A stretch of DNA of 64,000 bases from Actinospineispora eucalypti (lineage in GTDB: Bacteria > Actinomycetota > Actinomycetes > Mycobacteriales > Pseudonocardiaceae), in NCBI GenBank assembly GCA_014208095.1, contig JACHMT010000004.1, positions 744,001 through 808,000 on the forward strand. The letters are read 5' to 3'. Position numbers and translations under genes: made by a program. Shown in pieces: positions 40,623-60,001 of the stretch (positions are counted from its first letter, which is position 1; the number at the start of each line of letters is the position of its first letter). The notes under the pieces were generated by a model. It had not been told where the DNA came from and did not search any database. It was given only the letters and a program-made list of their open reading frames with translations.

Positions 40623-42727
40623 TTAGCCGGACGTCGCACTACGGGAGCTAAGGAACTGATCTCGGAGGCTGGACAGGCTGAAGTATCCATCCGCGAGATC
40701 GGCAACCCAGTAGGTCCACCCGTTGCGCGCACCACCGCTGGCGCTGAGGGCGGCCGCAGACGGACTGCCATAAGTCTCAGAACCAAACAAGATCCGCCCG
40801 TCGTTGAGCACGGTGGCCGTGCTCTCTGCGTCCACTGCGGCCAAGAGCGTGGAGCCTGCCGGGAGGAGATCGGCGTCAACGAGGTCCGCCACCGCAACAT
40901 CGTGGGTTGTCCAGCTCGACAGGCCCGGGGCTGGCGATACGGCGGGGTAGGTCGGCTGATACGCCTCGTCCGCGAGCTTGGCGAATGCGTCCCGCACGAC
41001 GGTTCCCAAAGGCGCCTGCGGGCGTCGAGGAACTCTTCGTAGCCGAGCCTCTCCCAGCCGTCCGGGAGGGCGTGCCAGTACCGCTGCCGGGCCAGGCGGC
41101 GGTTGCTAATGCCCTTTTGCGTGACCTGGGCAGGCCAGTACGCCATGGGTGCCTTGTCAGAGATATCGATGTTGTCGCTCCAGTCGACCAAGGCCATGTT
41201 GGCGATCTGGTTGATCCGCTTGGTCTCGCTGATGCCCCGACTCTTGAGGAATGCCCGAGGGAACAGGTGGTGGCGCTCGATCCCTTTGCGCGCGGTGACG
41301 GCGGGGTCGAGCCGGGCACGGACCCTGCCGGTGGAGAGCAGCGGCTCGGCGTCGAGAATGTTCAACGCGGCGAAGTCGCCATCAGCACCGGCGATTTGGC
41401 TGCGGAGGTGGCCAGCTCGTTGGGCAGCGTGGTGGTCCAGTAGTCGTCGCCGAGGGTGTCGGTGACGATGCGATCCAACGTCCGGCAAAAGCCGTCGGCG
41501 TCGCCAGCCTTGACTTCGGTGATCTTGGATGCGTCCTGCTCGAACTGGGATTCGAGCGAGCCGGTATAGCGGCTGGTGGTATGAGCCATGAAGAACTAGC
41601 GGGCGAGCACTTCCCGGAGCCGGTCGAGCGGCACGGCGTAGTCGGTGCGGCCGATCAGCCACAGTGCATAGGAGAAGATCACCGTGTTCTCACTCGTGAT
41701 CATCTTGGCGCCGCGGAAGCCGGCGCGTTCTAGGCATTGCAGGTATTCATGCCAGTTGGTCAAGTCGAGTACGCGTTCCTGAGCTGCCTGTAGGCGCGCG
41801 AACTGTGCTTGGCGCCGGGCGGGGTCGATTCGGCCGGTCTCCAAGTCCTTGCCGCGCAGGAGTGAATACGCCAGGCGCAGCACTGCCCGTCGGAACGCGA
41901 CAGCGACCGAAACCCGCAGCAGCTGGGCAGGGATGGCTGGATGTACCAGTTGAAGGGTGATGCTCCGGACAGCGACGGGATCTTGCAGGCCCGGGAGAAC
42001 TCTTCGAGTTGCTCGCGGCCCTTCTCCCAGAAGACGCTCATCAGGGTCAAGATGAAGTCTGCCTGGTTGAGCGTGACGCCTTCGGAGTTGATCCGGACGA
42101 AGACCTCGGCGACCTGCTCCTCATCGACTCCCGGGGACAGTTCGACGATCTTGAATGGGTAGTTACGAAGGTCGTAGAGCCGGTCAATGGCCTCTTCGAG
42201 CCGGTCCTCCTCGTCCTGGCTCAGCTCACTGCGCTTCTCGGCGACGGCCTTGAGGTACCGCCTTTCCACGCGCTTGCGCCCGCCGCCGGGCGCCCACAGC
42301 TCGGAGATGTCCGGGATAAACTCGGAGTCCCGCTCGACGGCCGCGTCAGCGACAGCGAAGGTGGCATCGGTCGGACGGAAGGCGATCCTGATGCGGGTGA
42401 GTGAATAGTCCGACTTCATCACCTCGCGGCCGGTCATTACCGCGAAGAGGCTGGTCAGACGCTGCTGACCGTCAACGATGAGCAGGCGGGGAACCGCGTC
42501 TCTGTTCCCGCCGCCGATCTGGCGCGCTCCCGGTTCGGCCCCGGTCTCCCAGAACAACAGGTACCCGACCGGAAAGCCCTTGTACATCGAGTCCAATAGG
42601 TCACGCACCTTGCTGGCCTGGCAGACGAAGGGCCGCTGGATGTCGGGCAAGGCAACTTCGCCGCGCCCGATGGACTCCATGAGCAGCGAACCGAGTAGGT
42701 GGTGTCCTTGAACAGCGTGATAGCCAT
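40623..42727 (-). pseudogene. DUF262-DUF1524-RAMA protein, multiply disrupted
   Basis: Starts MAITLFKDTTYSV at 42727 (GAGG upstream), 17 nt after the methyltransferase stop. Pieces in successive frames rebuild one protein: DUF262 (VALPDIQRPFVCQASKVRDL, IVDGQQRLTSLFAVMTG), a helical middle, DUF1524 with the HNH-like ERHHLFPRAFLKSRG and MALVDWSDNIDISDKAP, and a C-terminal RAMA-like domain (LLPAGSTLLAAVDAE, YGSPSAAALSASGG). Frameshifts are needed near 42690, 41930, 41385 and 41012, and TAG at 41596-41598 replaces a residue that is usually Trp. Intact relatives resemble GmrSD-type modification-dependent nucleases; this copy cannot be functional as read. Confidence 0.85.
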
Positions 42728-42744: not shown

Positions 42745-45700
42745 TCAGGCTTGGGCTGGGTGGCGCGGGCCGTGGCCTGCGGGGAGGTCGGCTAGCGGTG
42801 ACCAGCCGGTGCCGCCTCGGGCCGAAGCGGCGGCCATCCGGTCGTAGGCGTCGAGCACAAGCCGGCGGGTGCGGTAGTCGCCGTGGTCACGTTCTTCGTA
42901 CTTGCGGAGCACTAAGAACGAGTCGAGCACATGCTCGGCCTCGGGCCGGGTCAGGCCAAATACATGTAGGAACGCGGCGTCGAGGTCGGCGCGCAGCAGC
43001 GCTCTGCGCTCCGGGTCCCACCGGAACGGTGGCCCGTCCAGGCTCATCTCGCGGGCATAGGGCCGGATCCGCCACGAGGTGTAAGACAGCTCCAGCACGT
43101 AGGGGGTTACCCACTCGGCCAGGGTACGGTCGGGCTCCCATGGCGCCGGCCCGGCGAAGATGGCTGGGGTGGGGCACGCGAGCTGCTTGGTCAGGAAGTA
43201 CTTCATGCCGGTGCCGCTGATCTTTTGCCGGGCGATATAATCGAAAGCCAGCGTCGACCACATGGCATGCAGTAGTGGCCCGTGCGCGGGTGCACCGGGA
43301 AACGCGAGCAGGAACTTGTCTCCGATGGCGCTGGTCGGGAGTACCGACGGCACGAACGTTCGTAGGAGGGCGCCGCCCGTGATGTCTCGCCATCCGAGCA
43401 TCCACCCGTGCTCCCACTTTCCAAGGAGGCGCTTCTTAACCTCGGATTCCTGTACCCAGTAGCGCGGGCCGGCTTCCGTGTGCGGGTCGTTGTGCATCTC
43501 GTCGGTCAGGCGCGGCAGCTCGGTATCGCGACTTCCCGGGGCACGTAGCGCGTACGAGCTTAGTCGGTGATCGAAATGCCATAACAACTTTGCTTCGTAC
43601 AGTGGGAGGTACTCACGAGCGTCATCCCGATAGGACCAACCATTGAAGCGAGCGCCAGCAAGGTCTTCTGCCGTCCGGAAGAGTCCCGAGTCGTTGGCCA
43701 TGTGGAACAGTGTTCCGAACGAGAGCCCCCACGGGTTGCCGTCTGCTGTACCGTCGCGGATGAGTACTGGGTGGCGGTGGTAGATGCCGAGTGTGATCTC
43801 GGCGTCTCTCCTCGTGAGGAATGTTGGACAGTTACTTGTATTCGGATTAACGATGGAGATCTCCTGCGGCGAGACCGTGAAGACTCGGTCGTGTGTAATC
43901 TCCGATGGATGCTTACTGAAAAAGGACATCCGGATCTTCTCGACTCGAGAGTCTCGACCTCGGATTGTGGTAACTGCGAAACGAAACTTTCGATTACCAA
44001 CATCTGTCCATATTCGTGGGTTGGTCACGAAGTCATGTAGTGCAGACAGATTATTCCTGGCGACTAGGTCCGCAAAGAACTGGGAGGTGGTCTTGTCGGT
44101 CGCCAGCCCAGTTGGGGTGACAATTCCGGCCGTGCCGGTTGGCTCCAGGAGCGCGCGGAACGTCTCGGCGAACACGCTGTACGTGTTCACGTCGCCCTGG
44201 CCGGTGAACGGGTATCGGCCGCTGTCCCGTAGCAGGTGGGCGATGCCGGCTGACCTGCGCAGCGCGGAGCAGTAGGCATCATGTAGCGCAGGGTCCTCCT
44301 CGCGTAGCTGGTCGATCATTGCGCCACGGATAGCGGCGGTCTTGGCGTCGACGATGTCATTACGGCCGACAGCGGCGAAGAACTCCTTGTCTTGGATCTT
44401 GACTCGGTCCCAGGGCGGGTTGCCGATCACGCAGGAGAAGCCACCTTGCCACCAGGTTTCCGGGTTGACGTCGGCGGTGCCGGGCTCGGGCACGGTGAAG
44501 ATGGTCGGGAACTCCAGGTGCCAGTGGAAGAAACGGTATTGGCGCGCAAGATCGCGCACAGTCGTGATCAGGTCGGAGGGCACATCGGTCGGGTTGTCGA
44601 CGATCCTGCGCAGCGTGTCGTGGGTGATGCCGAAGCCACGGGCTGGGGTATTGGATTGGACAAACGCGGCACACCAAGCGTCGGCAGCCAGCTTGCGGGC
44701 TTCGAGGTCGGGATCGCGCTCGAACCGTTGCCATGCCTCCGCTTGCTCCCGTATATCAGCCGGGGTGCCGGTTGGCTGTCGTTCGAGCTCGCGGGCCTTC
44801 TTCGCGAGCGAGGTTGTCTCGACGTCGAGGACATCGCTGTCGGAGATCGGCAGGCGCCGGGCGACGCTGTCGAAGACGGTGTGCTGCCCGGCGGCGCGTT
44901 TGCGTTCGGCCTTATTACGGGCCTTGAGCTTACTGGTCCGGGTCGTGTCGTCCCCGTTGAGGGCGACAAAGGCGGCGTCCGGGATGTTTCCGGCAAGCAG
45001 TTTCGGCGTGGCGCCAAGCAGCGAGTTGCCGACCTTGAAGTGGGTGTCCAGGAATGGCAGTGGGCGGGAGCCGTCAAAGGATTCCAGCCACAATGCGACC
45101 TTGGTGATCTCGATAGCCAAGTCGTTCAAGTCGACGCCGTAGACGCAGCGGGCCACGACATCGGCCATCGCCGCCCGCATCGCCTGTGGTGTCGGCTCGG
45201 CATCGCTTGTACGGACCGCCGCGAGTGCGGCGGCGATGCGTCGGGCTGCGGCGACCACGAAGTGGCCGCTGCCGACAGCCGGGTCGACGATGGTGAGAGT
45301 GAGCAGCGCGGTTTCTGGGTCTGCGGCGCGCCGGGCGTCGGCGATGAGGGGGTCGAGCGCCTCGTCGAGCATGAGCGCGATGAGCTCGGATGGGGTGTAG
45401 TAGGAGCCGGACTTCTTGCGGGTGTTGCCGTTGGCTTGCTCCAGGGTGAAGGTCCGGGCGGCGGCGTCGTAGCGGGGGACATAGGCGAGCAGACCTTCGT
45501 ACACGCCGCCGAGTTCCTCGCTGTCCAGGTTGCGGTAGTCGACCGGGCGGCGGGCTCCGGTGACGGGGTCGGTGATCTCGGCCAGCTCCTTGACTGCGGC
45601 GAGCAGGTTTCGGTTGGGCAGCTGTGCACCGTCGAGCACTCCGAGGCTGTCACGGGAGAACAGGGATGCGGCGAGCCCGGGTAGCGCGAGGGCGTCCAGT

Positions 45701-46857
45701 CCGTCGTCGGCGAGGGCGTCGGTGACGATGAGGTGGGCGTCCCACAGGTCGGTGTGTCGGGTACCGGTGCGGGTGGCGGCCAGGCGCCGCAGCCGAGCGG
45801 TGGAGAAGTAGGCGGCGTAGTGGGCCTGGCCGTCTGTGTTGGTGCTGGCGATGTGCAGCAGTTCGCGGTCCTCGGCGACGAAGAGCACGATGAGCCGGTA
45901 GGCGACCCGCAGCAGTGCTCGGTGCAGCAGCGCGCACGCATCCGGCACAACGGCAAGCTCCGCTCGGAGTTCGACGTTGGTCGGATGCGACACAAAGCCC
46001 GTGCCGAGGTGCTTGAGCGCTCGGGCCACTCCCTCGCGCAGTGTCATGAGTGCGCGGGTTCCGTCGGCGATCGCCACGTTGCGCCATCGCTCGAGCCAGC
46101 AATCCGCTGCGGAGAAGGCTGGGGTTTCGGTGTCGTCGGCTTCGGGTTCGGTCTCGGCAGCCAACGGTGCGAATCGGCTTGCATGCACGGCCAGGAAGAA
46201 CAGCCGGAACTCGGCGTAGCGCTGGTTGCCGAAGACATCGTCGAGGTCGAACTCGACGTAGGACTGCCGGGTCAGGCTGGACGCGTCACGCAGCACCCGC
46301 AAGATGTGCCCGTTCGAGACAACCGCCCACAGGTAGTGCGGGCTGCGGTTGAGCGCGTCCTGCACCAGCGACTGCGGGGCGCGGGCTGTGACGCCGTGGG
46401 TGGGGGCATCGAGGCCCACTCCGCCGCCGACGAGGTGCAGGAGCACTCCCACCGCCGGATCGGTGGCCCCGGCCGGCCACGCAAGGCGATGTGAGATCGG
46501 GAAGTGGACGGGCTCGGTCTCGCCGAGGGTTGGCGGGAGGTCGATTCCGGCGGTGAGCCGCTCCGGCCGGCCGAAGCCCAGCTCGTAAAGCAGCGGGAGC
46601 AGCCACTTGTCGCGTGTCAGGCCGACTGCGGGGTCGCCCGGGGGAAGTCGCTCAAGCGCGGCGTGCCACGCGCGGTGTGCGCCGAGGCATGCCTCCCACG
46701 CCCGGGCGGCTGCCGCGTTGATCGTCATGCCTGGGGTGAGTTGGTAGTCCTCGGCGCGCTGGCCCGGCATCCGCAGGTCTACCGCCCTGGCCAGCGCGTC
46801 ACTCGGTAGGACTGTGCCGACCGCGCGGACGGAGCGGAATGCGGTCAGCGTGGTCAC
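42745..46857 (-). CDS. Eco57I-type N6-adenine DNA methyltransferase (DISARM/BREX-like)
   Basis: 1370 residues from a GTG at 46857, which overlaps the SNF2 helicase stop (GTGA). Long N-terminal helical region, then methyltransferase motif I IVDPAVGSGHFVVAAARRIAA (about residue 527), VDLNDLAIEITKVALWLESF, and catalytic NPPW in CVIGNPPWDRVKIQDKEFF (about residue 812), typical of gamma-class adenine methylases such as PglX and DrmMI. The C-terminal half resembles target-recognition and spacer regions (LTKQLACPTPAIF). Third gene of the operon. Methylates host DNA or acts as a modification/restriction module; activity is inferred. Confidence 0.9.
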   Translation of the reverse strand: MTTLTAFRSVRAVGTVLPSDALARAVDLRMPGQRAEDYQLTPGMTINAAAARAWEACLGAHRAWHAALERLPPGDPAVGLTRDKWLLPLLYELGFGRPERLTAGIDLPPTLGETEPVHFPISHRLAWPAGATDPAVGVLLHLVGGGVGLDAPTHGVTARAPQSLVQDALNRSPHYLWAVVSNGHILRVLRDASSLTRQSYVEFDLDDVFGNQRYAEFRLFFLAVHASRFAPLAAETEPEADDTETPAFSAADCWLERWRNVAIADGTRALMTLREGVARALKHLGTGFVSHPTNVELRAELAVVPDACALLHRALLRVAYRLIVLFVAEDRELLHIASTNTDGQAHYAAYFSTARLRRLAATRTGTRHTDLWDAHLIVTDALADDGLDALALPGLAASLFSRDSLGVLDGAQLPNRNLLAAVKELAEITDPVTGARRPVDYRNLDSEELGGVYEGLLAYVPRYDAAARTFTLEQANGNTRKKSGSYYTPSELIALMLDEALDPLIADARRAADPETALLTLTIVDPAVGSGHFVVAAARRIAAALAAVRTSDAEPTPQAMRAAMADVVARCVYGVDLNDLAIEITKVALWLESFDGSRPLPFLDTHFKVGNSLLGATPKLLAGNIPDAAFVALNGDDTTRTSKLKARNKAERKRAAGQHTVFDSVARRLPISDSDVLDVETTSLAKKARELERQPTGTPADIREQAEAWQRFERDPDLEARKLAADAWCAAFVQSNTPARGFGITHDTLRRIVDNPTDVPSDLITTVRDLARQYRFFHWHLEFPTIFTVPEPGTADVNPETWWQGGFSCVIGNPPWDRVKIQDKEFFAAVGRNDIVDAKTAAIRGAMIDQLREEDPALHDAYCSALRRSAGIAHLLRDSGRYPFTGQGDVNTYSVFAETFRALLEPTGTAGIVTPTGLATDKTTSQFFADLVARNNLSALHDFVTNPRIWTDVGNRKFRFAVTTIRGRDSRVEKIRMSFFSKHPSEITHDRVFTVSPQEISIVNPNTSNCPTFLTRRDAEITLGIYHRHPVLIRDGTADGNPWGLSFGTLFHMANDSGLFRTAEDLAGARFNGWSYRDDAREYLPLYEAKLLWHFDHRLSSYALRAPGSRDTELPRLTDEMHNDPHTEAGPRYWVQESEVKKRLLGKWEHGWMLGWRDITGGALLRTFVPSVLPTSAIGDKFLLAFPGAPAHGPLLHAMWSTLAFDYIARQKISGTGMKYFLTKQLACPTPAIFAGPAPWEPDRTLAEWVTPYVLELSYTSWRIRPYAREMSLDGPPFRWDPERRALLRADLDAAFLHVFGLTRPEAEHVLDSFLVLRKYEERDHGDYRTRRLVLDAYDRMAAASARGGTGWSPLADLPAGHGPRHPAQA

Positions 46858-49721
46858 GGCCCGCTCCGATCGGGCAGGTACACGTAGACGCCGAGGATGT
46901 CGGGCGGAGGCAGCAGCCGAGCCTGCAGTCCCCGTCGTGATACCCGGCTGCCACGGCGCACTGCCCGGTGTGCGTGCACCGCGTCGGCGGCCACCTGCTC
47001 CCCGAGTCGCGTCAGGTGCCCTTGCAGGTGGGGAAGGCGGTCCAGCGCGCGCTGAAGCTGGTAACGGGCGAGGTCGTCGTGGACGTTGCCGCTCGGGGTG
47101 GCGTCCAGCAAATGGCCGGTGCTGTCGGTGTCCAGCCAGCAGGTCTCGCCGCCGACCACCGTGAAGCCGAGGAACTGGGCGTCCTCGGCGACCTGGGTGA
47201 CGGTGCGCCGTGAGCCGGGCACGACGAGCTCGACCCGAAACCGCGCTACCACCAGCGTCGTCACCGTGCCGACCGCTCTGGTGCGAATGACCGCCGCTCG
47301 TCGCGCCGGACGCGCGGCCTCGGGTAGCAACGGGTCGAGTGCGCCATCCAGGACATAGCGGGCGATCGCCTCGACGGTGTGATCGGTCCGGTTGAGCAAT
47401 GGCTCCCCGGGTGGAGCCGGCAGCGACCGATGGAACCGCATCGACGGGGTCTTGGCGGGTGGAAGTTGATCCAGGAGCGCGTGTGGAAGCGTGTCGGTGC
47501 GTACGGTGAAACCGTCGGCGGTGTTGCTGATCTGGCCAGACAGCAGGGCGAGTGCGTCGCGGGTGAACCGTTCGGCATCGGCTGGGCCGCCGAGACCGCG
47601 ACGGACTTCGGCGAGCGTCTCGGCGACGTCGTCTGGGCGCAGGGTGGCCTGCCGGAACCGTGACCGGGAGGCCTTCTCCCGTTCGGCCGCATCGACCCAC
47701 CGTGTGAGCACCGCGTCGGCGGTCTCGCTGGAGGTCACCGAACCGAGGTCGAGCATGAGCTGCTCGGGTTGAGTACCGCGCAGCAGCAGGGACTCCCAGA
47801 TAGCCTTCATTACGGTGGTCGAGTCGGCCGGCACGGCAACCGAGACTCCGGTGCTGCGTTTGATCGCCTCGTGGCGGCGGATGAGCACGTCGAGGACCAC
47901 GCCGTCGATCTTGTTATCGGCGCCGTAGTAGGTGACCGTTCGCACGGTGGGGGCGAGTTGTCCGAATCGGTCTACCCGGCCTTCGCGCTGTTCGTGGCGG
48001 GTGGGGTTCCAGGCGAGGTCGTAATGCACCACCGCGGTGAAGCCGTCCTGCAGGTTGACCCCCTCGGACAGGCAGTCGGTCGCGACCAGCACTCGCACGC
48101 CATCGTGGGCGATTAGCTCGTTGACCCTGGACTCGCGTTCCTCCGGCGGCAACGTCCCGGTGACGGCTTCCACCCGGGCAGCGGAATGGGTCTTCGCCAA
48201 GGCAGCGTGCAGGTGTTCGGCCACGTACTCTGCGGTTGCGATGTAGCGGCAGAACACAATGGGGTGGAAGCCGTCGGTGATGAGCGAGTTGAGGATGGTC
48301 GCCAGGCGTGCGAGCTTGGCATCGCCTTTGGGCCCGCACAGTGCTTCGGCCTCGGCGGCGAATCCGCGCAGTCTGCGCCGGGTGGTTGCGTCAGGATGAT
48401 CGTTGGCGGAGGTGTCCGCGCCGAGTCCGGTGTCGTCGCCCTCCGCGAGCTCGTCGATGTCCACGTCGAGAACTTGTGGGGAGGCGAGTGCGTCGGCGGT
48501 CTCGACGGTCTCGGCGCTGGTGAGCTCCGAGCGGTTGCGTAGCGTTTGCACCGCTGCGGCGGGGCTGGACGCGAGCGAACGCAGCAGCGCGATCGCCGAC
48601 CACCACCGGACTCGCTGGTGCACATGGCTGAGCGAGGGGTCGGTGACCCGCTGCCGTGCGAATGCGAGGATTCGATCGAACAGCTTCTGGTATTCGGGTC
48701 GGAGTCGGTAGCTCTCCTCGGCGCACTCCCTGTTCGGAAAGGGGGTGTCCTCGGCAAGGTATTCGCGAATGTCCGCGCGCTGTCGCTGGATAAGGTAGCT
48801 AGCGAGTAGCTTCCGATCGTTCTCGCGTGCCGGTCCGGACAGATCCGCCGGCAGTTCGCCGAGGCGGTTATCCAGTAGCCCGACCAGGGCTTGCCACGCG
48901 CCATCGTCGCCGTTGTGCGGGGTGGCGGTGAGCAGCAGCAGATGCCGGGCAGGGTCGTCTGCGAGTCTGCGCAGCAGGGTGTAGCGCTGGTGAGCCTGTG
49001 ATGAGGCGGTGGTGGACGGTGCGATGCAGGTGTGCGCTTCGTCGACGATGACCAGTTCTGGGCACAGCAGGGCGAACTCGTCGCGGCGGCTGCGTTGCTT
49101 GATGTAGTCGGTGGAGACGATGAGGTGCGGGTAGTGCTGGTAGACGTTCGACCCGAAGGGCACCAAGCGGGCCAACCGGTTCGCCGTCGATGGCAGCAGC
49201 AGCTCGGCGTTGATTCCGAACTTGGTGCGCAGCTCGGATTGCCACTGCGGGGCAAGCTGGGGTGAGCAGAGCACTGCCAGGCGTTGGGCGTCTCCGCTGG
49301 CTAGCAGTTCGGCGGCGATGAGACCGGCTTCGATGGTTTTGCCGACGCCTACGCCGTCCGCGATGAGCAGGCGGGTGGTGTCCTGGGCGGTGGCCATCAT
49401 GAGCGGCACGAGCTGGTAGTTGCGCGGTGTGACCGCTAGCTGCGCGAACGATCGGAACGGTCCGGTGGTGTCCCGGAAGGAGAGGCGCAGCGCGTCGCGT
49501 AGCAGCCGGGCGCGGGCGGCGTCGCCGCGATCGTCCACGCTGGGAGCGTCAAACGTTGCCACTGCCGGGTGGTCGATACCCGGCAGCAGGAGCGTGGTCT
49601 CGTCGTCGCGGCCGCCGAGTGGCCGCACCAGCACCGTGCCAGCGGGGGAGGCGGGCAGCACCAGCCACTCGCGGCCGCGCGCGGTCACCAAGGTGCCAGG
49701 GCGGAAGTCGGTGGTCGTCAC
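46854..49721 (-). CDS. SNF2-family helicase, DrmD-like
   Basis: 955 residues from ATG 49721, overlapping the upstream stop by 4 nt. Walker A LLIADGVGVGKTIEAGL (residues about 118-134), DEAH box VIVDEAHTC (227-230), motif III LLLTATPHNGDD, motif V VLVATDCLSEGVNLQDG and motif VI EQREGRVDRFGQ (about 575). The C-terminal 350 residues are helical with no known domain. Together with an adjacent adenine methylase this matches the DrmD/DrmMI pair of class 1 DISARM. Expected to be an ATP-driven DNA translocase. Confidence 0.9.
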   Translation of the reverse strand: MTTTDFRPGTLVTARGREWLVLPASPAGTVLVRPLGGRDDETTLLLPGIDHPAVATFDAPSVDDRGDAARARLLRDALRLSFRDTTGPFRSFAQLAVTPRNYQLVPLMMATAQDTTRLLIADGVGVGKTIEAGLIAAELLASGDAQRLAVLCSPQLAPQWQSELRTKFGINAELLLPSTANRLARLVPFGSNVYQHYPHLIVSTDYIKQRSRRDEFALLCPELVIVDEAHTCIAPSTTASSQAHQRYTLLRRLADDPARHLLLLTATPHNGDDGAWQALVGLLDNRLGELPADLSGPARENDRKLLASYLIQRQRADIREYLAEDTPFPNRECAEESYRLRPEYQKLFDRILAFARQRVTDPSLSHVHQRVRWWSAIALLRSLASSPAAAVQTLRNRSELTSAETVETADALASPQVLDVDIDELAEGDDTGLGADTSANDHPDATTRRRLRGFAAEAEALCGPKGDAKLARLATILNSLITDGFHPIVFCRYIATAEYVAEHLHAALAKTHSAARVEAVTGTLPPEERESRVNELIAHDGVRVLVATDCLSEGVNLQDGFTAVVHYDLAWNPTRHEQREGRVDRFGQLAPTVRTVTYYGADNKIDGVVLDVLIRRHEAIKRSTGVSVAVPADSTTVMKAIWESLLLRGTQPEQLMLDLGSVTSSETADAVLTRWVDAAEREKASRSRFRQATLRPDDVAETLAEVRRGLGGPADAERFTRDALALLSGQISNTADGFTVRTDTLPHALLDQLPPAKTPSMRFHRSLPAPPGEPLLNRTDHTVEAIARYVLDGALDPLLPEAARPARRAAVIRTRAVGTVTTLVVARFRVELVVPGSRRTVTQVAEDAQFLGFTVVGGETCWLDTDSTGHLLDATPSGNVHDDLARYQLQRALDRLPHLQGHLTRLGEQVAADAVHAHRAVRRGSRVSRRGLQARLLPPPDILGVYVYLPDRSGP

Positions 49722-52700
49722 ACGTGCTCCCTGCCGGGGCCAAAGACACTGGGATTGGCTGTCACGAGTTCACGCCAGCTCGGCTGCTCACCGCAGGCTG
49801 GGCTACGGTCGTCTTCGTGGTGGAACCTGAGCACCAACCAGCCGGCCTCGTCTTCAAGGCGAGACTGCGCCGCCCGATCCTTCTCGGTCTGGTGGTTGTA
49901 ATCGTGCACCGGGCCGTCGACGAAGATCGCGACGTCACGCGCTGAGGTGCGGTAGGCGAAATCGGGCCGGACATAGAAGCCGTCGATGAGTTCTTGTGAC
50001 TCGTCTGGCAGTCGGTAGCCACCTTCGTTGAGGTAGTGCAGGAAACGCTGCTCCAACCACGTGCAGCCCTTCTCCAACCGGGCCAGCAGCTCGGCGCGGT
50101 CCTCTCCTCGAACACCTCCCAGCTTCACACTGGCGGTGGACAGCTCCTGAAGCAGACCGATGACGCAGTGGCGGTCGAGCGCCTGGTGGTCCCACTGGTT
50201 GCTGTAGGACAACAGGCAGTCGTAGCAGGCTTGGGCGCACAGCTCAGTTGCGTGCTCGGCCTTTCCGAGGTCGTTGCCGGTGTCCGCGTCGTAGTGCAGC
50301 AGCCTGATGGCGCGCCGGGCCACGCGGCGCATCGGGCCGTCCTCGGTGGCGAGTCGACGCAGGACGCCCGCGCCGCCTTCGGCGGCCTCATACATCAACA
50401 GCACCGACCAGGCGTGCGGACGGATGCGCCCGGGCATTGGCTCGACCGCGAGCTCGTTGCTCTCCAGCTGGAACTCGGCTTCGACGGCGCGCTTGAGCGC
50501 GTACATCGCGGCCATTCGCTGCTCAACGGGAACGCGTGCGGCCAGCTTGATCAGCAGCGCGTTGCGGTGGTCCTGGACGTAGGGAACGACCCGCTGGATG
50601 CGTCCATCGCTATCGCTTGCGGTGTTCTGGTCGACGGCGCGAGCCCATTTGCCCTCGACCGTGTCGAGCAGGTAGCCGTGTTCGGCTTTGTCTTTGCGGC
50701 GGCGCAGGCCCACGTTCATGCGGCGGATGAGCGCGGTGTCGCCGTAGTTCAGCTCGGCGAGTGTGCGACCGTCGGCATCGACGAGTGTGCTGGTGAGCTT
50801 GCTGCTGCGTTCGCCGTGCGGTTCGAAGCGGATCGCGGTGGTGATCTCGTGTCCGGCGCGTTGGCGTTCTTCCTCGTCCGCGCTGATCCGGTCCCGGCGG
50901 CGGGTCTTGACGGCCAACAAGCGCATCATTGCGGTCATCTTCGCCAGTTCGGTCGATCCGCAGTGCTCACACTCGCCATACCCGGTCGGCCCGTTACCCT
51001 CGTTGAGATATCCGCAGGCCTCGCAGCGGTCTATCTCAGTCAGGTTGACTCCGGTGCCGTCTTCGCGGGCTGGCAAACTGACCCGATTTACTTCGTAACG
51101 TGCGCCCTCGTGGTAGATGAAGGCGCCTGGGCCGAATTCGCTGATCGCCAGGAAGCGCGGGCGCTGCACGTAGTCGCCCTGCCCGTGTGCTGTCCGGCGT
51201 TCGGCTGGGATGAATGCCGCGAGGGGCAGCCGGGGGAAGGAGTACCCGGGCAGAAATCCTTCGGAGGCGAAGTACCGGTAGGGATAGAAGTCGCCTTGGT
51301 TGACGTCATCGATCTCGCCGCGCAAGAGGTCCAGGGCGGCCCGGGCCTCGGATATCTGTCCCCGTGCACGCCGCTTGGCGGGCTCGGATGCCCCAATGGT
51401 CTTCAGTACTTCGTTGGCGGAGTCGAGCTCGTTGCGTGCCTCCTGGTACAGGCCGCGCCAACGATCAAGCGCCTGTTGGAACCGGCTTGGCGCCTGGCTG
51501 ATCGTCTCCTCGATCCAGCGGTCGCGCCACCACGGCGCGGCTACCACCTCGGGCGTGGCACGCAGTACCGTTCGAACAGCCGAGGTGGCCCGCGTTGTGG
51601 CCGCCTGGTTGAAGATCTTCGAGGTCACCTCGTCATGTAACGGCTGACCGGGCAGCTCCACATCGATTAGCTCGACCATGCTCGATTTGAGGTCCAGTCC
51701 CGTCTGCACCAGCCAGATCGCGTGGGCATGAGCGCGCACGAGGTCCTGATTGCCCAGTTCGAGCCGAGGTGGTGCGACCGCGCCGGCGACCATGTCCTGG
51801 CTGCGTCCGAAGTAGTAATTGTCGTGGGCGCTGCCTGTAGCGCAGTACGTCAGTACCACAGCCGGCTGCCCCGAGCGGCCGGCTCGGCCGGAGCGCTGCG
51901 CATAGTTCGCTGGGGTTGGCGGGACGTTGCGCATTCCGACTACGTTGAGGCTTCTGATGTCGACGCCGAGCTCCATCGTCGGCGAGCAATACAGGACGGG
52001 CAGGTCAGCTGTGCTGAACCGTCGCTCACGCTCCTGGCGTACCTCAGGGGCGACCTGAGCGGTGTGTTCGTGTGCTTCGAGGCCAGCCAGCCCACCCGCG
52101 GTCTCGGCGTAGAACCGACGGAAGTAGGGGTTGACCCGGCCCTCGGTGTTGTTGCCACGCATCAGGTCAGGGGCACGGTGTTGCCCCTCGCCAGCCCACC
52201 ATTCGATCATCCCGGCCTGGATGCGGTAGCCCACACGCCGATGCCGCTCCTCAACCCTGGCGAGCAGCCCGACCTTGGCCATCGTGGTGAGCAAGGAGCC
52301 GATGATGGTGTCCGCGTCCGCCACTGCCACAGGGTGCGGGTGCAAGGGGAAACGGTCAGGCCGGCGCAGCCAACGTCCGTATAGACCGAGGCCGGAGAGG
52401 TAGAGGTCGCGGCCTATCCCGGGAAGCCCTTTGGGCCGGGTGCCTGGGTAGCAGGTCGCCGCGTAGACGCCTTGCTCGTCGGTCAACGTCCATGGTGCGC
52501 GTAGCCACTCTTGACTTGCTCGCCTGATGGCCTCGTACCGCTCCTCGGTGAGGTACTCAGACTCGATGCAAATATGCCGGCGCATTTCGTCGAGTAGCGT
52601 CTGCATGATGAGCTGACGAGTCTCTGGGTCGGCTCCCGCCAATGGCTGCCCCGCGCTTGCCCATTTATCTTCGTCAACGGCGAGCCGGTTGAGGCTCGCG

Positions 52701-54883
52701 TAGGCAAGCTTCAGCTGGCCCGTCTGCTCCAGGTTGGGCATCGTGATCCGCCAGCCCCGCCGCAGGTCCGCCCACACCCGGTAGGCCACCGATTCCCGTA
52801 GCGCCTTTGCTACTCTTTGTTCAGCTGCGTACTCCACATCCGGGTTGCGGGCGTAATCAGCGAGCGAGACGTTGAGGCATTCGATCACCCGCCGGCCGAG
52901 TTCGTCGTCGGTTAGCGGTTCGTCCGGGAATCGCTCCTGCTGTCGGGCCACGGCCCGATAGACGGCCGAGCGAATCAGGCCGACCAATACGAAGTCGTTG
53001 AAATGGCCGGCCTGCAGGCTGGCGTCCTGGCGGTTGTCGGAGAAAGCCAGGAACTTGCGGGCGTCCTCATCGAGGTCAGTGGCGCCGCGTAATGTCCGCA
53101 TCACGGCCTGGGACAACACTGAGACTGCGCTCGCCCTGCCCTCGGTACCCAGACTCGCCACGCGAGAGAATTCCGATTGCCCCGTGCTCTCATAGCTAGT
53201 CTTGCAGCACGGGCAGAAATGCAGAGTCTCAAAGAACGCGACCGGAATCCCCTCGGCGGTGCGTGCCCCGGAGTTGTTGACCCGCATCCCCTCCGGCAGC
53301 CGCGATCGACGAGGCTTATCGAGTTCCCGGCTGCCACCGAACTCAACCACCCAGTCGTCCGGCACGAGATCCAGAAGCTCAACCGAGGATGTGTCAGGCC
53401 AATCCGAGCTGAGGATCAGCAATAAGCCTGTGGCATGCGCCGGGTCGCCCGCGCCACCGCTCAGCAGCCGCGGAGTGAACAGCTCACCGCCCTGCTCCCG
53501 ATTCACCACCAGGAAGTCCTGTCCACACTCGCGGCAGAACGCGAGCGGAAACAGGGGCTGTCCGGGCGGCTCGACCGGGGCGCTGCGCTGATAGCGGGTC
53601 GTCAGGTAGCGCCGGTCCGGTCGATCAAGGGTCACATAGGCGGTGTCCCCCTTACCGATGAACTGATGGAGCTTGAATGCGAACAGCGCACGACCATCGG
53701 CACCGCGTGCCCGCGACCCAGCCAGCAGTGTGTCTCGCAACGCCTTCTCACACACCGCGTGGTCTAAGCCGGTGTCTGTCGCGAGCGTGACTGCTGCGTC
53801 CCGTAGCCGTGTAGGTGATTGGCGAGCAAGGTGGCCTTCGCCATCCTCACGCAGCCCGAAAACCCGCTCGATCCAGATGGCGAGATCGTCGTGCCGCAAG
53901 GCTGCGTGAGCTGCCGGAGGCACGCTCGTTACCCGTCTGGCGAGTCGGGTGAGATCGGCCTCACCAACGGTGGCGCGCCGGAGCGACTCGCCGATGACGC
54001 TGGCGGCCGCAATCGGCGTCCCGAACAGTCGAGTGGCCAGAGCGGCTACCTCCGTGCGTTGCTCGGCCGGGCTTCCTGGCCCGGCAAGCGTGGCGCTGGT
54101 TCCGATGCACTGGAGCTGATCACCCCGCACGGCTGCGCGTAGCCGGCGCACCAGCATGGCGACATCGGCACCTTGACGGCCTCGATATGTGTGCAACTCA
54201 TCGAGCACGAGGAACGAGAGGTTCTCCGCGCTCGTGATCAGTCGTTGGCGCTCCCTGGGACGGGTGAGCATGAGTTCCAACATCATGTAGTTAGTCAGCA
54301 AGATGTCCGGCGGGCTATCGAGGATCACGTCTCGCTCTGCGCGGCTCTCCTGACCGGTGTACCGCTTGAAACTGACCCTCGGCCTGTCCTTGCTGAGGAA
54401 CTTTTCCAACTCGCCGCGCTGGCTGTTGGCCAGCGCATTCATCGGGTAGACGATGATCGCGCGTACTCCGCGTCCTGGGCCGTCATGGAGCACGCGATCC
54501 ACGATCGGCACGATGTAGGACAGTGACTTGCCCGAGCCAGTGCCTGTGGTGAGCACGTACGACTCTCGGCGTGTGGCAACACGGATTGCGTCAGCCTGAT
54601 GCTTATGGAATCTGAGCTCGCTACCGACCGGATCGGTGTCCGTCCGCTGTCGGAAGATCTCAGAACATGCCGGGTGGAGCAGACCAGCATCAACCAGGTC
54701 GCCGACCGAACCGCCGGACTCGAAGGCCGGATTGAGCGCTAGCCAAGGCTCGGGCCACAGCAGCCCGTTCTCGATTTCACGCTCGACCGTTTTGAAGACG
54801 TCTGGGTCGCGGATGTTCAGGAACCCACGCACGAACGACTCGTAGTCGTCGAGCACTTCCCCGAGCACACCGAACGCATCCAC
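49718..54883 (-). CDS. giant DEAD/DEAH helicase with DUF1998 and nuclease-like C-terminus
   Basis: 1721 residues from GTG 54883 (GGAGG, 5-nt spacing; a longer frame to 55078 lacks homology). Walker A LTTGTGSGKSLSY (113-120), motif II VLDELHTYRGRQGAD (DELH 228-231), helicase C motifs SPTMELGVDIRSLNVVGM and NYAQRSGRAGRSGQP near residue 1000, so the two RecA lobes are separated by a large insert. Then a zinc ribbon (CEACGYLN, CEHCGS, about 1294), the DUF1998 signature CYDCLLSYSNQWDHQALDR (about 1558), and a PD-(D/E)XK/DUF559-like end (FYVRPDFAYR, DVAIFVDGPVHDYNHQTEK, GWLVLRF). First gene of the operon. Domain set corresponds to DrmA plus DrmB fused, or to DruE. Confidence 0.88.
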   Translation of the reverse strand: MDAFGVLGEVLDDYESFVRGFLNIRDPDVFKTVEREIENGLLWPEPWLALNPAFESGGSVGDLVDAGLLHPACSEIFRQRTDTDPVGSELRFHKHQADAIRVATRRESYVLTTGTGSGKSLSYIVPIVDRVLHDGPGRGVRAIIVYPMNALANSQRGELEKFLSKDRPRVSFKRYTGQESRAERDVILDSPPDILLTNYMMLELMLTRPRERQRLITSAENLSFLVLDELHTYRGRQGADVAMLVRRLRAAVRGDQLQCIGTSATLAGPGSPAEQRTEVAALATRLFGTPIAAASVIGESLRRATVGEADLTRLARRVTSVPPAAHAALRHDDLAIWIERVFGLREDGEGHLARQSPTRLRDAAVTLATDTGLDHAVCEKALRDTLLAGSRARGADGRALFAFKLHQFIGKGDTAYVTLDRPDRRYLTTRYQRSAPVEPPGQPLFPLAFCRECGQDFLVVNREQGGELFTPRLLSGGAGDPAHATGLLLILSSDWPDTSSVELLDLVPDDWVVEFGGSRELDKPRRSRLPEGMRVNNSGARTAEGIPVAFFETLHFCPCCKTSYESTGQSEFSRVASLGTEGRASAVSVLSQAVMRTLRGATDLDEDARKFLAFSDNRQDASLQAGHFNDFVLVGLIRSAVYRAVARQQERFPDEPLTDDELGRRVIECLNVSLADYARNPDVEYAAEQRVAKALRESVAYRVWADLRRGWRITMPNLEQTGQLKLAYASLNRLAVDEDKWASAGQPLAGADPETRQLIMQTLLDEMRRHICIESEYLTEERYEAIRRASQEWLRAPWTLTDEQGVYAATCYPGTRPKGLPGIGRDLYLSGLGLYGRWLRRPDRFPLHPHPVAVADADTIIGSLLTTMAKVGLLARVEERHRRVGYRIQAGMIEWWAGEGQHRAPDLMRGNNTEGRVNPYFRRFYAETAGGLAGLEAHEHTAQVAPEVRQERERRFSTADLPVLYCSPTMELGVDIRSLNVVGMRNVPPTPANYAQRSGRAGRSGQPAVVLTYCATGSAHDNYYFGRSQDMVAGAVAPPRLELGNQDLVRAHAHAIWLVQTGLDLKSSMVELIDVELPGQPLHDEVTSKIFNQAATTRATSAVRTVLRATPEVVAAPWWRDRWIEETISQAPSRFQQALDRWRGLYQEARNELDSANEVLKTIGASEPAKRRARGQISEARAALDLLRGEIDDVNQGDFYPYRYFASEGFLPGYSFPRLPLAAFIPAERRTAHGQGDYVQRPRFLAISEFGPGAFIYHEGARYEVNRVSLPAREDGTGVNLTEIDRCEACGYLNEGNGPTGYGECEHCGSTELAKMTAMMRLLAVKTRRRDRISADEEERQRAGHEITTAIRFEPHGERSSKLTSTLVDADGRTLAELNYGDTALIRRMNVGLRRRKDKAEHGYLLDTVEGKWARAVDQNTASDSDGRIQRVVPYVQDHRNALLIKLAARVPVEQRMAAMYALKRAVEAEFQLESNELAVEPMPGRIRPHAWSVLLMYEAAEGGAGVLRRLATEDGPMRRVARRAIRLLHYDADTGNDLGKAEHATELCAQACYDCLLSYSNQWDHQALDRHCVIGLLQELSTASVKLGGVRGEDRAELLARLEKGCTWLEQRFLHYLNEGGYRLPDESQELIDGFYVRPDFAYRTSARDVAIFVDGPVHDYNHQTEKDRAAQSRLEDEAGWLVLRFHHEDDRSPACGEQPSWRELVTANPSVFGPGREHV

Positions 54884-55558: not shown

Positions 55559-56106
55559 GTCGGTTCATCGAGCCTGGTCCTGAGTTCAGGAAGCTGTTCC
55601 ACACTTTCGAGCACACGGCGTTCCGGTTGGAGGCGCGCGATACCTACGACGCGTCATATGAGAACGAGTCGTTGCGGAAGTTCCTTGCCGGTGAGCCGGA
55701 CGATCTGCCGTGGTTGCAGACCTGGCTGGACATGATCCGTGAGGCGGCGTCCGAGGGCCGTCGTTTCGCCCGTGTCCGGGTGGTGACGGTGCCGCTGACT
55801 GACTACAGCCGGTTCGGGGCGTGGTGCGCGCAGTTCACTAACGGCGCGGGGGAGGACATCCGCTACCTGGAACGGGAACGGGCGCGCGCCGCGCAGGTTC
55901 CGGAGCATGACTACTGGCTGTTCGATTCACGCAAGTTGGTGCGGATGCACTTCGATGACCAGGATGCCTTCCTGGGCGGGGAGATCATCGAGGATCCGAC
56001 GGTGATCGTGCAGCACAACTATTGGCGTGATGCCGCCTGGCATCACGCAGTTCGACGGGACGATTTTGCCAACGAACAGGGCGTCGGACGTCTCGAACGT
56101 CCTTGA
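55555..56106 (+). CDS. DUF6879 family protein
   Basis: 183 residues if translation starts at CTG 55555 (LSRFIEPGPEFRKLF), which overlaps the preceding stop and follows a GGGAGGAGGGGG purine run at good spacing; no ATG, GTG or TTG start fits better. Family hallmark FHTFEHTAFRLEARDTYD near the N-terminus, then DMIREAASEGRRFARVRVVT and HDYWLFDSRKLVRMHFDD. Usually next to a DUF5753 regulator and thought to be part of a toxin-antitoxin-like or signalling pair. Function unproven. Confidence 0.75.
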   Translation: MSRFIEPGPEFRKLFHTFEHTAFRLEARDTYDASYENESLRKFLAGEPDDLPWLQTWLDMIREAASEGRRFARVRVVTVPLTDYSRFGAWCAQFTNGAGEDIRYLERERARAAQVPEHDYWLFDSRKLVRMHFDDQDAFLGGEIIEDPTVIVQHNYWRDAAWHHAVRRDDFANEQGVGRLERP

Positions 56107-56947
56107 AGCACGCAACACGCTCGGCAAACGACTCCGCGAGCTGCGCCTCCGCGCTGGTCTGAGCGGTAGGGAGCTGGCGGAGTCGTTGTCGTGGGCGCGG
56201 TCCAAGGTGTCCAAGCTGGAGAACGGACAGCAGACCCCCACCGACAACGACATCAGAGCCTGGACCGGGGCGACGGGCAGCGGCAACGAGGCAGAGTCTC
56301 TGCTGGTCTCGTTGCACACCCTGGAAGTGCAGCACGCCGACTGGCAGCGGATCCTGCGCACGGGGATCCGGCCTCGGCAGAACAAGCTGGCCGAGTTGGA
56401 CCAGCAGACGAAGCTGTTCCGCGCCTTCGAGGTGACCGTCATCCCCGGCCTGCTCCAGACGCCGGGGTACGCACGCGCCCGGTTCGCCGAAAGCATCCGC
56501 TGGCTCAAGGTCCCGAACGACATCGACGAGGCCGTGCAGGGCCGCATCGCTCGACAGGAGATCCTGCATCGGCCGGACAAACGATTCCATTTCGTGCTGA
56601 CCGAGGCGGCGTTGCGTTACCGGCTGTGCCCGCCGGACGTGACGCTCAGTCAGCTCGGCCACCTGATCTCGCTCACCGCCTTGCCGAACGTCCGGCTCGG
56701 CGTCATCGGCTTCGACACCCAGTACGTCACGTCCCCGTGGCACGGTTTCTGGATCTACGACAACGACAGGGTGCTCGTCGAAACCATGTCCGCCGCGCTC
56801 GACCTGCGCCAGCCAGCCGAGATCGAGCTCTACAGCGGGGCCTTCGAGCAGCTCGCCGCCGTGGCCAGCTACGGCCGCTCCGCGCGCGCCATCATCAACC
56901 GCGCCATCGACGACCTTGAGCCTGAGGTGGCGGACGGTAGCGATTAA
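56030..56947 (+). CDS. Scr1-type XRE regulator with DUF5753
   Basis: 305 residues from ATG 56030 (GTG 56027 possible); its first 77 nt overlap the DUF6879 gene. HTH at about residues 27-80 (LGKRLRELRLRAGLSGRELA, WARSKVSKLENGQQTPTDND) and DUF5753 at about 100-295 (LFRAFEVTVIPGLLQTPGYA, FHFVLTEAALRY, LISLTALPNVRLGVIGFDTQ, WIYDNDRVLVETMSAALDL). The ASDVSNVLEARNTLG lead-in is typical. Probably the master repressor of the flanking operons. Confidence 0.9.
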   Translation: MPPGITQFDGTILPTNRASDVSNVLEARNTLGKRLRELRLRAGLSGRELAESLSWARSKVSKLENGQQTPTDNDIRAWTGATGSGNEAESLLVSLHTLEVQHADWQRILRTGIRPRQNKLAELDQQTKLFRAFEVTVIPGLLQTPGYARARFAESIRWLKVPNDIDEAVQGRIARQEILHRPDKRFHFVLTEAALRYRLCPPDVTLSQLGHLISLTALPNVRLGVIGFDTQYVTSPWHGFWIYDNDRVLVETMSAALDLRQPAEIELYSGAFEQLAAVASYGRSARAIINRAIDDLEPEVADGSD

Positions 56948-56974
56948 TTTCGCGCCGGGCCGTGCGGACAGCTT

Positions 56975-57001
56975 GTTTCGAGAAACTTTGGGAACGTTTC
57001 T
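56975..57001. promoter_or_regulatory. overlapping GTTTC/GAAAC dyads before radical SAM gene
   Basis: GTTTC-GA-GAAAC (56975-56986) overlaps a second dyad AGAAAC/GTTTCT (56981-57001, 9-nt spacer), immediately before the radical SAM start at 57008. TAGATT at 57001 could be a -10 box if the true start is the GTG at 57020 on a leaderless transcript. Likely operator for the upstream XRE protein. Confidence 0.4.
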
Positions 57002-57007
57002 AGATTC

Positions 57008-58231
57008 GTGAGTTGGCACGTGTTTACGCTGCCCGGGCACGTCGCGATTGGCGGCATCGTCCGGGGAGATCTGGTGACACCATCCGTGCCATTGCTGGCG
57101 AAAGAGCAGGTCGAACGGCTACCCGAGCGCGCGCGTGAGGTGGTGGAGTATCGCAAGAGCGGGTTGAGCCTGAACCACATTCAGGGGTGTCCGCTGGATT
57201 GTGCGTACTGCATCCGGCATACCTACGGGTTGTGGGATCAGCGGCAGCCGCGCGCGCTGATGCCGGATGCCGAGGCGGTGCGCCAGCTGGTGCAGCACCG
57301 GTACTTCCAGCCGCACGTGACGCCGGTGCAGGTGTTCAACCGCGCCACGGACCCGTTTCTGCCGGCTGTCCGGGCGCACACCTTCGCGGTGTTGGAGGAT
57401 CTCGATCGGCGCGGCCTCACCAATCACCTCTTGGTCATCACCCGCTATCAGATGATCCCGGCCGACGTCGAGCGGCTGAACCAGCTCCTGCATCTCAAGG
57501 TGACGCTGTTGTTCACGTACTCGGGTATCGAGAACACCCGGATCGAGCCGTACCCGTCGCGGGTCGCGGCCGGGTCGTTGAAGCTGATGAGCGCGCCGAG
57601 CCGGCGCCGGTATCGCACGGTGCTGTACTGGCGTCCCCTGGTGCCTGGGCTCAACGACTCCGACGAGCACCTTCACCGAGCCTGTGAACTGGCCCGGTAC
57701 GCGGACGCGACCGTGTTCACCGGGCTGTTCTATCGGGACGAGATCGCCGCCTATTACCGGGCGAACCACCTGCCTGAGCCGTATGACGAGACCGCGCGCC
57801 GCAAGATCGTCCCGGAAACGTTGGAGCAGCGGGTGCTCGCGGTGTTCGGCATGTCGGTGCCGTTGTTCCGCAAGACCTCGTGCGCGGTGTCCTACGTACA
57901 CGGGATGCCGGACTACAACGGCCACTACGGCATCCGGGAGATGTGTGACATCTGCCCACTGAGCCAACTCGCGCGCTGCGCCGGCGCGCACCGCGCCCCG
58001 ACGCGTAAGTGCCTGGAGCAGGTGGCGGCGGTGCTACCAGAGGGCCATCAGATGGAGGTCGTAGAGATCGATGAGCGGGCGGCGGTGGTGTCCGGGTTGG
58101 ACACGGAGCAGCCGCGCTACTACTTGCAGCACGCGCTCGGGTTCCAGGTCCACGATGTCGCACACCCACACCGGACGCGGCGGCATGGGCGCGCGGACAT
58201 CGGCTGGAAGGACACCACCGACGATGACTGA
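57008..58231 (+). CDS. radical SAM enzyme of unknown substrate
   Basis: 407 residues from GTG 57008 (57020 possible). Iron-sulfur motif Cx3Cx2C in IQGCPLDCAYCIRH (Cys61, 65, 68), then FNRATDPFLPAVRAHT and HLLVITRYQM, as in the DNA-repair-photolyase (SplB)-like radical SAM group. A C-terminal cysteine cluster (CDICPLSQLARCAG and RAPTRKC, from about residue 312) suggests an auxiliary cluster. Neighbours are a DEDDh exonuclease and a thymidylate kinase-like gene, so a nucleotide or nucleic-acid substrate is plausible. It overlaps the next gene by 8 nt. Confidence 0.85.
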   Translation: MSWHVFTLPGHVAIGGIVRGDLVTPSVPLLAKEQVERLPERAREVVEYRKSGLSLNHIQGCPLDCAYCIRHTYGLWDQRQPRALMPDAEAVRQLVQHRYFQPHVTPVQVFNRATDPFLPAVRAHTFAVLEDLDRRGLTNHLLVITRYQMIPADVERLNQLLHLKVTLLFTYSGIENTRIEPYPSRVAAGSLKLMSAPSRRRYRTVLYWRPLVPGLNDSDEHLHRACELARYADATVFTGLFYRDEIAAYYRANHLPEPYDETARRKIVPETLEQRVLAVFGMSVPLFRKTSCAVSYVHGMPDYNGHYGIREMCDICPLSQLARCAGAHRAPTRKCLEQVAAVLPEGHQMEVVEIDERAAVVSGLDTEQPRYYLQHALGFQVHDVAHPHRTRRHGRADIGWKDTTDDD

Positions 58232-59801: not shown

Positions 59802-60001
59802 ACTTGATCAGCCACCCGGCCCTCGAACAGGCGCTTCTGGCGTTTCACGTCGCACTGGAACGGCACGCGCCCGACGACACCCATTCACGGTTCGGCGACT
59901 GGGTGGACGGCAGCGGCACCCGCATCGTCGAAGCGTTGTTGAAGGACGGCTGGCAACCGCCGGTGCCGTCCTGGATGGAGGACTCAGATGGGATGGGCTG
60001 A
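59798..60001 (+). CDS. small hypothetical protein
   Basis: 67 residues, GTG 59798 overlapping the upstream stop by 4 nt. MNLISHPALEQALLAFHVAL then RFGDWVDGSGTRIVEALLKD and WQPPVPSWMEDSDGMG. Acidic, helical; unknown function. Overlaps the next gene by 14 nt. Confidence 0.6.
   Translation: MNLISHPALEQALLAFHVALERHAPDDTHSRFGDWVDGSGTRIVEALLKDGWQPPVPSWMEDSDGMG

Follow-up and report, generated by a model that had tools for sequence, protein, structure and literature searches.

The window analysed here is a 64,000-nucleotide stretch of the 9.6 Mb genome of Actinospineispora eucalypti (GCA_014208095.1; contig 4, JACHMT010000004.1, bases 744001–808000). Its minus strand carries three consecutive genes, for a giant YprA-family helicase, an SNF2-type helicase and an N6-adenine methylase (Table 1). 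The gene set and order, the domains and motifs of the products, the Vsr-like fold of a structural model and the recurrence of the arrangement in other genomes identify these genes as an ARMADA Type I operon. ARMADA systems, a name that two later papers also use, were described in a recent bioRxiv preprint (Bell et al., 2025; September 2025; PMC12458937) as a YprA helicase of the Druantia-side branch together with a BrxHII-like helicase and a PglX-like methylase, and in both ARMADA types the YprA protein ends in a Vsr nuclease that is predicted to be active.

Organisation of the operon

The first-pass annotation of this stretch had described three minus-strand genes joined by 4-nucleotide overlaps, with coordinates and sizes that proved correct; both junctions (helicase–SNF2 and SNF2–methylase) read GTGA. 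The longest open reading frame (ORF) for the helicase extends to 55078 (1786 residues). In the majority of relatives the alignment begins only at about residue 60–66 of this frame, which supports a start at the GTG codon at 54883, preceded by GGAGG; it begins earlier in L003, L004, L007, L008, L011 and L017 (loci of relatives are given as L and a number). The methylase ORF called mechanically reaches 47700, and this is an in-frame extension within the SNF2 gene.

Table 1. Features of the operon and of the gene that follows it. Coordinates are positions in the window.
Feature	Position	Strand	Remarks
YprA-family SF2 helicase with MrfA Zn-binding (DUF1998/MZB) module and C-terminal Vsr-type nuclease (predicted)	49718..54883	-	1721 aa; ARMADA Type I helicase
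RecA1 (DEAD) domain of the helicase	54071..54607	-	Walker A GTGSGK at residue 114, DELH at 228 (1721-aa numbering)
RecA2 (Helicase_C) domain of the helicase	51719..52084	-	Residues 999–1120 of the 1786-aa ORF; Pfam 999–1070, extended by eye to motif QRSGRAGR
MZB (MrfA Zn-binding, former DUF1998) domain of the helicase	50213..50506	-	CxxxCxxC at 1549 of the 1721-aa protein
C-terminal Vsr-type nuclease domain of the helicase (predicted)	49721..50086	-	122-residue piece
SNF2/RapA-like (BrxHII/DrmD-like, ArmA-type) helicase	46854..49721	-	955 aa
PglX/DrmMI-like N6-adenine methylase (Eco57I-type)	42745..46857	-	1370 aa; DPAVGSG at 525, NPPW at 813
GmrSD (DUF262) gene, broken	40623..42727	-	Begins 17 nt behind the methylase; read as six pieces, chosen by eye, whose frames differ

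A predicted Vsr-type nuclease domain at the end of the helicase

The giant protein has Pfam matches to DEAD, Helicase_C and MZB (DUF1998), and the solved chains nearest to it by sequence are 9tu7 and 9wae (2108 and 1970 residues, named helicase) and 6znp (YprA). Behind RecA1 lies a helical, winged-helix-like insert whose best match in a fold search was PqqD (Z 6.1); the published Type I helicase has a BrxA-like domain inserted at this place (PMC12458937). One CxxC pair, at residues 1287 and 1305, was read from the sequence. The preprint reports Zn-binding inserts in the OB region, one in Type I and two in Type II.

In the C-terminal 122 residues, E12, D42, D57, G58, H61 and D70 (numbering of this piece) are invariant in all 24 sequences aligned, which come from several phyla, and again in the set of 21 sequences from which a model was built (pLDDT 88.8, pTM 0.82). 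VIA-align matched the model to E. coli Vsr bound to DNA (1cw0; Z 8.2, root-mean-square deviation 3.1, 95 residues, 27% identity) and to 1vsr (Z 7.4), and also to the homing endonuclease I-Bth0305I (Z 9.4). The Vsr-type identity of the domain thus rests on the VIA-align Z score of 8.2 together with the conserved acidic and histidine residues, and we regard it as a predicted nuclease. The first-pass annotation had remarked that a PLD nuclease gene is lacking, and had overlooked both this C-terminal domain and the broken GmrSD gene behind the methylase. This does not leave the operon free of a nuclease: because the helicase ends in the predicted Vsr-type domain, none need be encoded by a separate PLD gene.

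Profile scores and phylogeny of the three proteins

Against the PADLOC profiles the helicase scores 341 bits with DruE3, with matches in stretches, but 45.8 bits with the best DrmA profile, and no DrmB profile ranks in the top 25 of its 27 families. The first-pass proposal that DrmA- and DrmB-type domains are fused in one chain therefore fails. Its naming of the two other products as DrmD-like and DrmMI-like was sound, with PADLOC scores of 277 bits for the SNF2 protein (DrmD) and 171 bits for the methylase (DrmMI). In Pfam the former matches Helicase_C, DEAD and ResIII, with SNF2-rel_dom beneath its cut-off, and the latter Eco57I, MmeI_Mtase and N6_Mtase; the methylase has no match among Protein Data Bank (PDB) sequences at E 0.001.

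In PADLOC the SNF2 protein also fits, over its full length and at 831 bits, PDLC02853, a model labelled DpdE; the other DpdE models shown reach at most 127 bits, and E. coli ArmA scores 135 bits against PDLC02853. This model would appear to have been built from Type I-like proteins. A Dpd system is disfavoured: the NCBIfam DpdE score is 171 bits against a cut-off of 500, PDLC02853 being the lone exception. A Pfam scan of 20 flanking ORFs showed no DpdA or 7-deazaguanine gene. PDLC02853 is a possible source of false Dpd calls. A search with a 2023 defence library divides one published system among three other labels; because these labels are spread over DruE, DpdE and DrmMI, an ARMADA operon may be entered wrongly in such counts, as an odd remnant of DISARM, Dpd or Druantia.

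Scores against the DruE3 profile PDLC00037 separate two groups of proteins. The window helicase (341), E. coli ArmC (348), an actinobacterial Type II helicase (L089, 313) and a Rhodococcus relative (L085, 363) make up the ARMADA range, and the Druantia-side relatives L087, L091 and L090 reach 627, 615 and 587 bits, with 2179 for true DruE. L010 has another YprA-family ORF on the same contig, upstream of its ARMADA operon (L010:1003-6276), which scores 1816 bits with the Druantia II DruE (DruE2) profile.

In direct comparison with the E. coli Type II proteins the matches are weak but significant: the SNF2 protein is 24% identical to ArmA over residues 1–788, the methylase 25% and 24% to ArmB in two pieces, and the helicase 34% and 26% to ArmC in two pieces. 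The Type II operon of E. coli ATCC 8739 (NC_010468, L104) adjoins Druantia III genes and Zorya II in the annotated record. In a tree of 38 helicases made with a quick method, the window falls in a set of 28 rows (Shimodaira–Hasegawa-like approximate likelihood ratio test, SH-aLRT, 99), separate from a Type II set of ArmC and two actinobacterial loci (100) and from a Druantia set (92). Because a number of long branches come together close to the root, only the separation of the 28-row set was used. L084, considered as a possible ARMADA locus, looks like a Druantia III pair to judge by the sizes of its ORFs (1096 and 2114 residues).

Recurrence and horizontal gain

Among 52 loci found with the helicase on genome contigs, the SNF2 gene is present in 41 and the methylase in 38, and both are at least partly present in 32. 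Neither was found in five (L028, L029, L033, L034 and L049); four of these are contigs shorter than 10 kb, and in L034 no partner lies within 6.4 kb downstream of the helicase or in the 1.6 kb of sequence upstream. The methylase was not found within 10 kb in L035 and L050. Many of the missing partners fall at contig or flank ends. In 29 loci drawn from 200 genomes of the family, the SNF2 gene directly follows the helicase in 26; the other three, L076, L082 and L083, are partial helicase matches. Longer stretches from 25 same-family genomes hold all three genes in order on one strand in 24 cases; the other, L122, ends at a contig end. The neighbourhood survey advised at the first pass thus finds the three-gene association again and again, and it is beyond chance.

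The operon also occurs on plasmids. A match at 1e-20 was found in 88 of 72,556 plasmid records, among them an annotated Rhodococcus plasmid that carries the same three genes, its SNF2 part being entered as two ORFs. Among named relatives, the one closest to the helicase comes from Amycolatopsis rhizosphaerae (80%). In the cyanobacterial relative L025 the gene order is reversed, matching a published order (PMC12458937).

Matches above 1000 bits were found in 29 of the 200 family genomes, the window's own included, and in none of ten other genomes of its genus. The third-position GC of the operon ORFs is 0.75–0.82, compared with 0.87–0.98 for picked ORFs at 775–39202 and 0.78–0.89 for ORFs at 56027–60001. 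This base composition and the patchy distribution suggest that the operon was probably acquired by horizontal transfer.

The helicase reading is interrupted in two of the nearest relatives, before the Vsr part in L093 (genome G057) and by two stops within the match in L123 (genome G191). It may therefore often happen that the system decays, or that sequencing errors make it seem so.

Putatively exchangeable genes behind the methylase

Relatives of ArmD were sought with the E. coli protein as query; they are 35–37% identical to it and align from residues 4–8 to 703 in loci long enough, in two frames in L007. With the same query, no match was found in the window between 35001 and 57000. An ArmD relative lies behind the methylase in 11 of the 17 close relatives (helicase 63–81% identical) that hold the methylase end (L005, L007, L008, L009, L010, L011, L012, L017, L018, L022 and L024), and there was no match in L013, L021, L043, L085, L093 and L123. 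A GmrSD gene follows ArmD in six (L007, L009, L010, L011, L012 and L024), and in L005, L017 and L018 a gene for a trypsin-like protease stands between methylase and ArmD. This arrangement seems unlike the MBL nuclease–protease pair described in PMC12799240. In L013 and L021 the slot behind the methylase holds, instead of ArmD, a gene for a SIR2-domain protein of more than 960 residues.

More distant family loci (L094–L098 and L105–L120; helicase 43–48% identical) number 21, and in 13 of them the methylase is followed by a McrB-like gene (L095–L097, L107, L110 and L112–L119), with ArmD behind the McrB-like gene in four of the 21; these stretches end at about 20 kb. An ArmD-like match (26–35%) lies just before the helicase in five of six cyanobacterial loci (L025, L026, L027, L032 and L049), partial in L025, L032 and L049; there is none in L028, a contig of 5 kb. 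All these module counts are of loci, not of independent events.

A link of McrBC with a DISARM-like system was announced in PMC11090510. The text of PMC12458937 ties ArmD to Type II, and its searched main text makes no mention of ArmD in Type I; its supplementary tables, which lie outside that search, may hold such associations, and a figure legend calls the associations 'not perfectly confined' to groups. The text of a BREX survey (PMC12839542) names neither DISARM, DUF1998 nor ARMADA.

Part of the family has a further addition at the front. In 12 of the 29 family loci (L062, L065–L070, L072–L074, L078 and L079) the helicase has about 300–330 extra N-terminal residues with a Ser/Thr kinase domain, giving a kinase–helicase–nuclease fusion of about 2080 residues. 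The fusion is present in 15 of 100 helicase ORFs, three duplicate copies of the 12 included; all 15 have the glycine loop and the VAxK-type, HRD and DFG motifs, and all four that were scanned match Pkinase with 150–161 bits. A McrB-like gene follows the methylase in 8 of the 11 kinase-fusion loci seen with a longer flank. The window helicase has no N-terminal kinase part. The word 'kinase' does not occur in the main text of PMC12458937, the supplementary tables being outside the search, and where PMC11090510 speaks of kinases it deals with histidine kinases and TerY-P kinases. A kinase fused to the ARMADA helicase is a lead that can be tested.

We give an even chance to the view that the ARMADA Type I core serves as a chassis on which the modules at either end can be swapped: behind it ArmD, McrBC, SIR2, DUF3644, DUF2326 or GmrSD-RAMA and, in part of the family, a kinase front. 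ArmD would then sit alone, with GmrSD or after the trypsin-like protease, and the kinase could switch the system by phosphorylation. If this is true, ArmD is a module common to both types, and the window shows the core with a decaying GmrSD module. A swappable effector slot would also offer a way to ask what the three-gene core does alone.

The broken gene behind the window's methylase was pieced together from 42686–42727, 41925–42689, 41599–41913, 41365–41589, 40997–41389 and 40626–40997. The second piece matches GmrSD_N (PF03235, 94.7 bits) in Pfam and the last, on the minus strand, a RAMA domain (53.3 bits, cut-off 35.2); in the piece that looked HNH-like to the eye, Pfam finds no family. 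The stretch appears to be either a pseudogene or the result of sequencing indels, and the gene is probably inactive by now. Its product would have added a further nuclease layer, perhaps reading adenine methylation through RAMA. The RAMA domain hints at an effector that reads adenine modification.

Flanking genes

Twenty ORFs beside the operon were scanned with Pfam, of which seven have no family. On the plus strand to the right are genes for a DUF6879 protein, a helix-turn-helix DUF5753 protein, an RNase T-type exonuclease and a thymidylate-kinase-like protein. Those scanned on the other side code, among other products, for amino-acid kinases, a polyprenyl synthetase, an AraC-type regulator and a thioesterase. 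An ARAGORN search of the window gave no tRNA.

Proposed function and alternatives

Defence by the E. coli Type II system was abolished by the loss of any of its four genes, ArmD included, by Walker-motif mutations in ArmA or ArmC and by an NPPW mutation in ArmB, and infected cells remained intact and survived (PMC12458937). We consider it likely that the window's operon is an ARMADA Type I anti-phage system, probably gained horizontally, in which a self-marking methylase works with two motors and a fused nuclease. Adenines within a short motif of the host DNA would carry the methylase's mark. DNA without this mark, or single strands exposed in phage entry or replication, would be the substrate of the SNF2/BrxHII-type translocase and the YprA helicase; the YprA motor would pull in a 3′ single strand, and the fused Vsr-type nuclease would nick or cut that strand. 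Phage DNA would be destroyed and the cell would survive. Methylation specificity, DNA targeting, cleavage and phage range are what we infer from Type II genetics and from the biochemistry of DruE, which binds and cuts long DNA containing single-stranded DNA with ATP and Mg (PMC13192584).

Several points weigh against this interpretation. Phage activity has been shown for Type II, and no phage test of Type I appears in the text of PMC12458937. The window's proteins have low sequence similarity to the tested Type II proteins (24–34%, in pieces for two of the three), and ArmD, essential in Type II, is not in the window. A Type II methylase mutant in the S-adenosylmethionine motif (GxG), and one ArmD mutant, lost defence only in part (PMC12458937), and protection of host DNA by the window's methylase is a proposal. 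As regards the nuclease model, two mitoribosomal chains (Z 8.3) stand level with Vsr (1cw0, Z 8.2) in VIA-align, and the Foldseek matches are weak (best E 0.013). BrxA is absent from the fold-search list for the insert after RecA1, where matches were middling; this absence excludes nothing. Finally, the 38-helicase tree contains no published Type I row (reference WP_108720193.1), so the type assignment rests on gene order, tree position and signature domains.

A different working of the same operon is possible, if rather doubtful: ARMADA by descent, with a methylase that belongs to the attacking machinery and senses or modifies phage DNA, with self-recognition on some basis other than host marking, and with exposed single-stranded DNA or replication intermediates as the trigger. 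BREX provides an analogy, its PglX being required for defence without a known cut, but methylases of this PglX-like family usually protect self DNA. Such a role would agree with the ArmB mutants, of which the NPPW mutant abolished defence and the GxG mutant only weakened it, with the need for every gene (PMC12458937), and with the action of DruE on DNA containing single strands without strong sequence specificity (PMC13192584).

It is very unlikely that the locus is a Druantia system, of Type III-B or another type, which merely has an SNF2 gene and a methylase gene beside it. The DruE profiles are indeed the best match of the helicase, and some Druantia III-like helicases carry Vsr domains (PMC12458937), but its DruE3 score lies within the ARMADA range of 313–363, beneath the 587–627 of the Druantia-side relatives, the 1816 of the Druantia II-type protein with DruE2 and the 2179 of true DruE, and the SNF2 and methylase genes are recurrent partners. 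No match to DruH was found at E 1e-6 within 20 kb, a weak test, since with this E. coli query no DruH came up next to L087, L090 and L091 either.

Descent from Class 1 DISARM, by merging of drmA and drmB into one gene and loss of drmC, is highly improbable. The DrmD (PADLOC 277 bits, NCBIfam 307 bits) and DrmMI (171 bits) matches speak for it, but NCBIfam sets its curated cut-off for DrmD about twice as high (610, against the 307 reached), the helicase prefers DruE3 to DrmA by 341 bits to 45.8, with DrmB outside the best 25 of 27 PADLOC families, a Vsr-type nuclease takes the place of the PLD protein, and proteins of these three types are what defines a clade apart, with a name of its own (PMC12458937). 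No PLD family was found among the 20 flanking ORFs scanned, which are part of the window's ORFs only. A DNA-repair module without a role in immunity is likewise highly improbable. It is favoured by the repair function of YprA/MrfA helicases (PMC12458937) and the likeness of the fused domain to a mismatch-type Vsr repair nuclease, and it is opposed by the patchy distribution (none of ten other genomes of the genus), the occurrence on plasmids and the McrBC, GmrSD and ArmD neighbours in relatives.

The first-pass suggestion of a distinct variant related to DISARM and Druantia was right about kinship with both systems, but the architecture is already named ARMADA Type I (PMC12458937). All three genes in substance belong to this one system, the outcome that the first-pass annotation had named as refuting its suggestion, although no ARMADA-named profile is among their PADLOC, Pfam and NCBIfam matches. 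The operon is a real, recurring and already named defence system, and its interest lies mostly in the modules of its relatives.

Comparison with known systems

Druantia Type III (DruH–DruE) shares with the window the helicase family and the one-chain form, and provides the closest profile. It differs in that the window helicase scores far beneath DruE, an SNF2–methylase pair stands in place of DruH, and the published Type III DruE carries a PLD nuclease. Class 1 DISARM has DrmD-like and DrmMI-like proteins and a helicase of the YprA family, but its DrmA and DrmB are split, its nuclease is the PLD protein DrmC and its helicase is of another branch, whereas the window has one chain. The one-chain form is typical of the YprA family, DISARM being the lineage with the split form (PMC12458937).

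The window's proteins are homologous to ArmA, ArmB and ArmC of ARMADA Type II. There the order is ArmA-ArmB-ArmC-ArmD, whereas the window's helicase comes first; ArmC (2113 residues) and ArmB (1642 residues) are both larger than the window's proteins, and ArmD (RelE-GajB/UvrD) is present, which the window is without. From ARMADA Type I the window differs in the broken GmrSD-RAMA gene behind its core, neither GmrSD nor DUF262 occurring in the main text of PMC12458937. It is like Type I in that its helicase is nearer to Druantia DruE (341) than to DISARM DrmA (45.8), a pattern that two Type II helicases share, and in the succession, on one strand, of a YprA helicase with a predicted C-terminal Vsr-type nuclease, a BrxHII/SNF2 protein and a PglX-like methylase.

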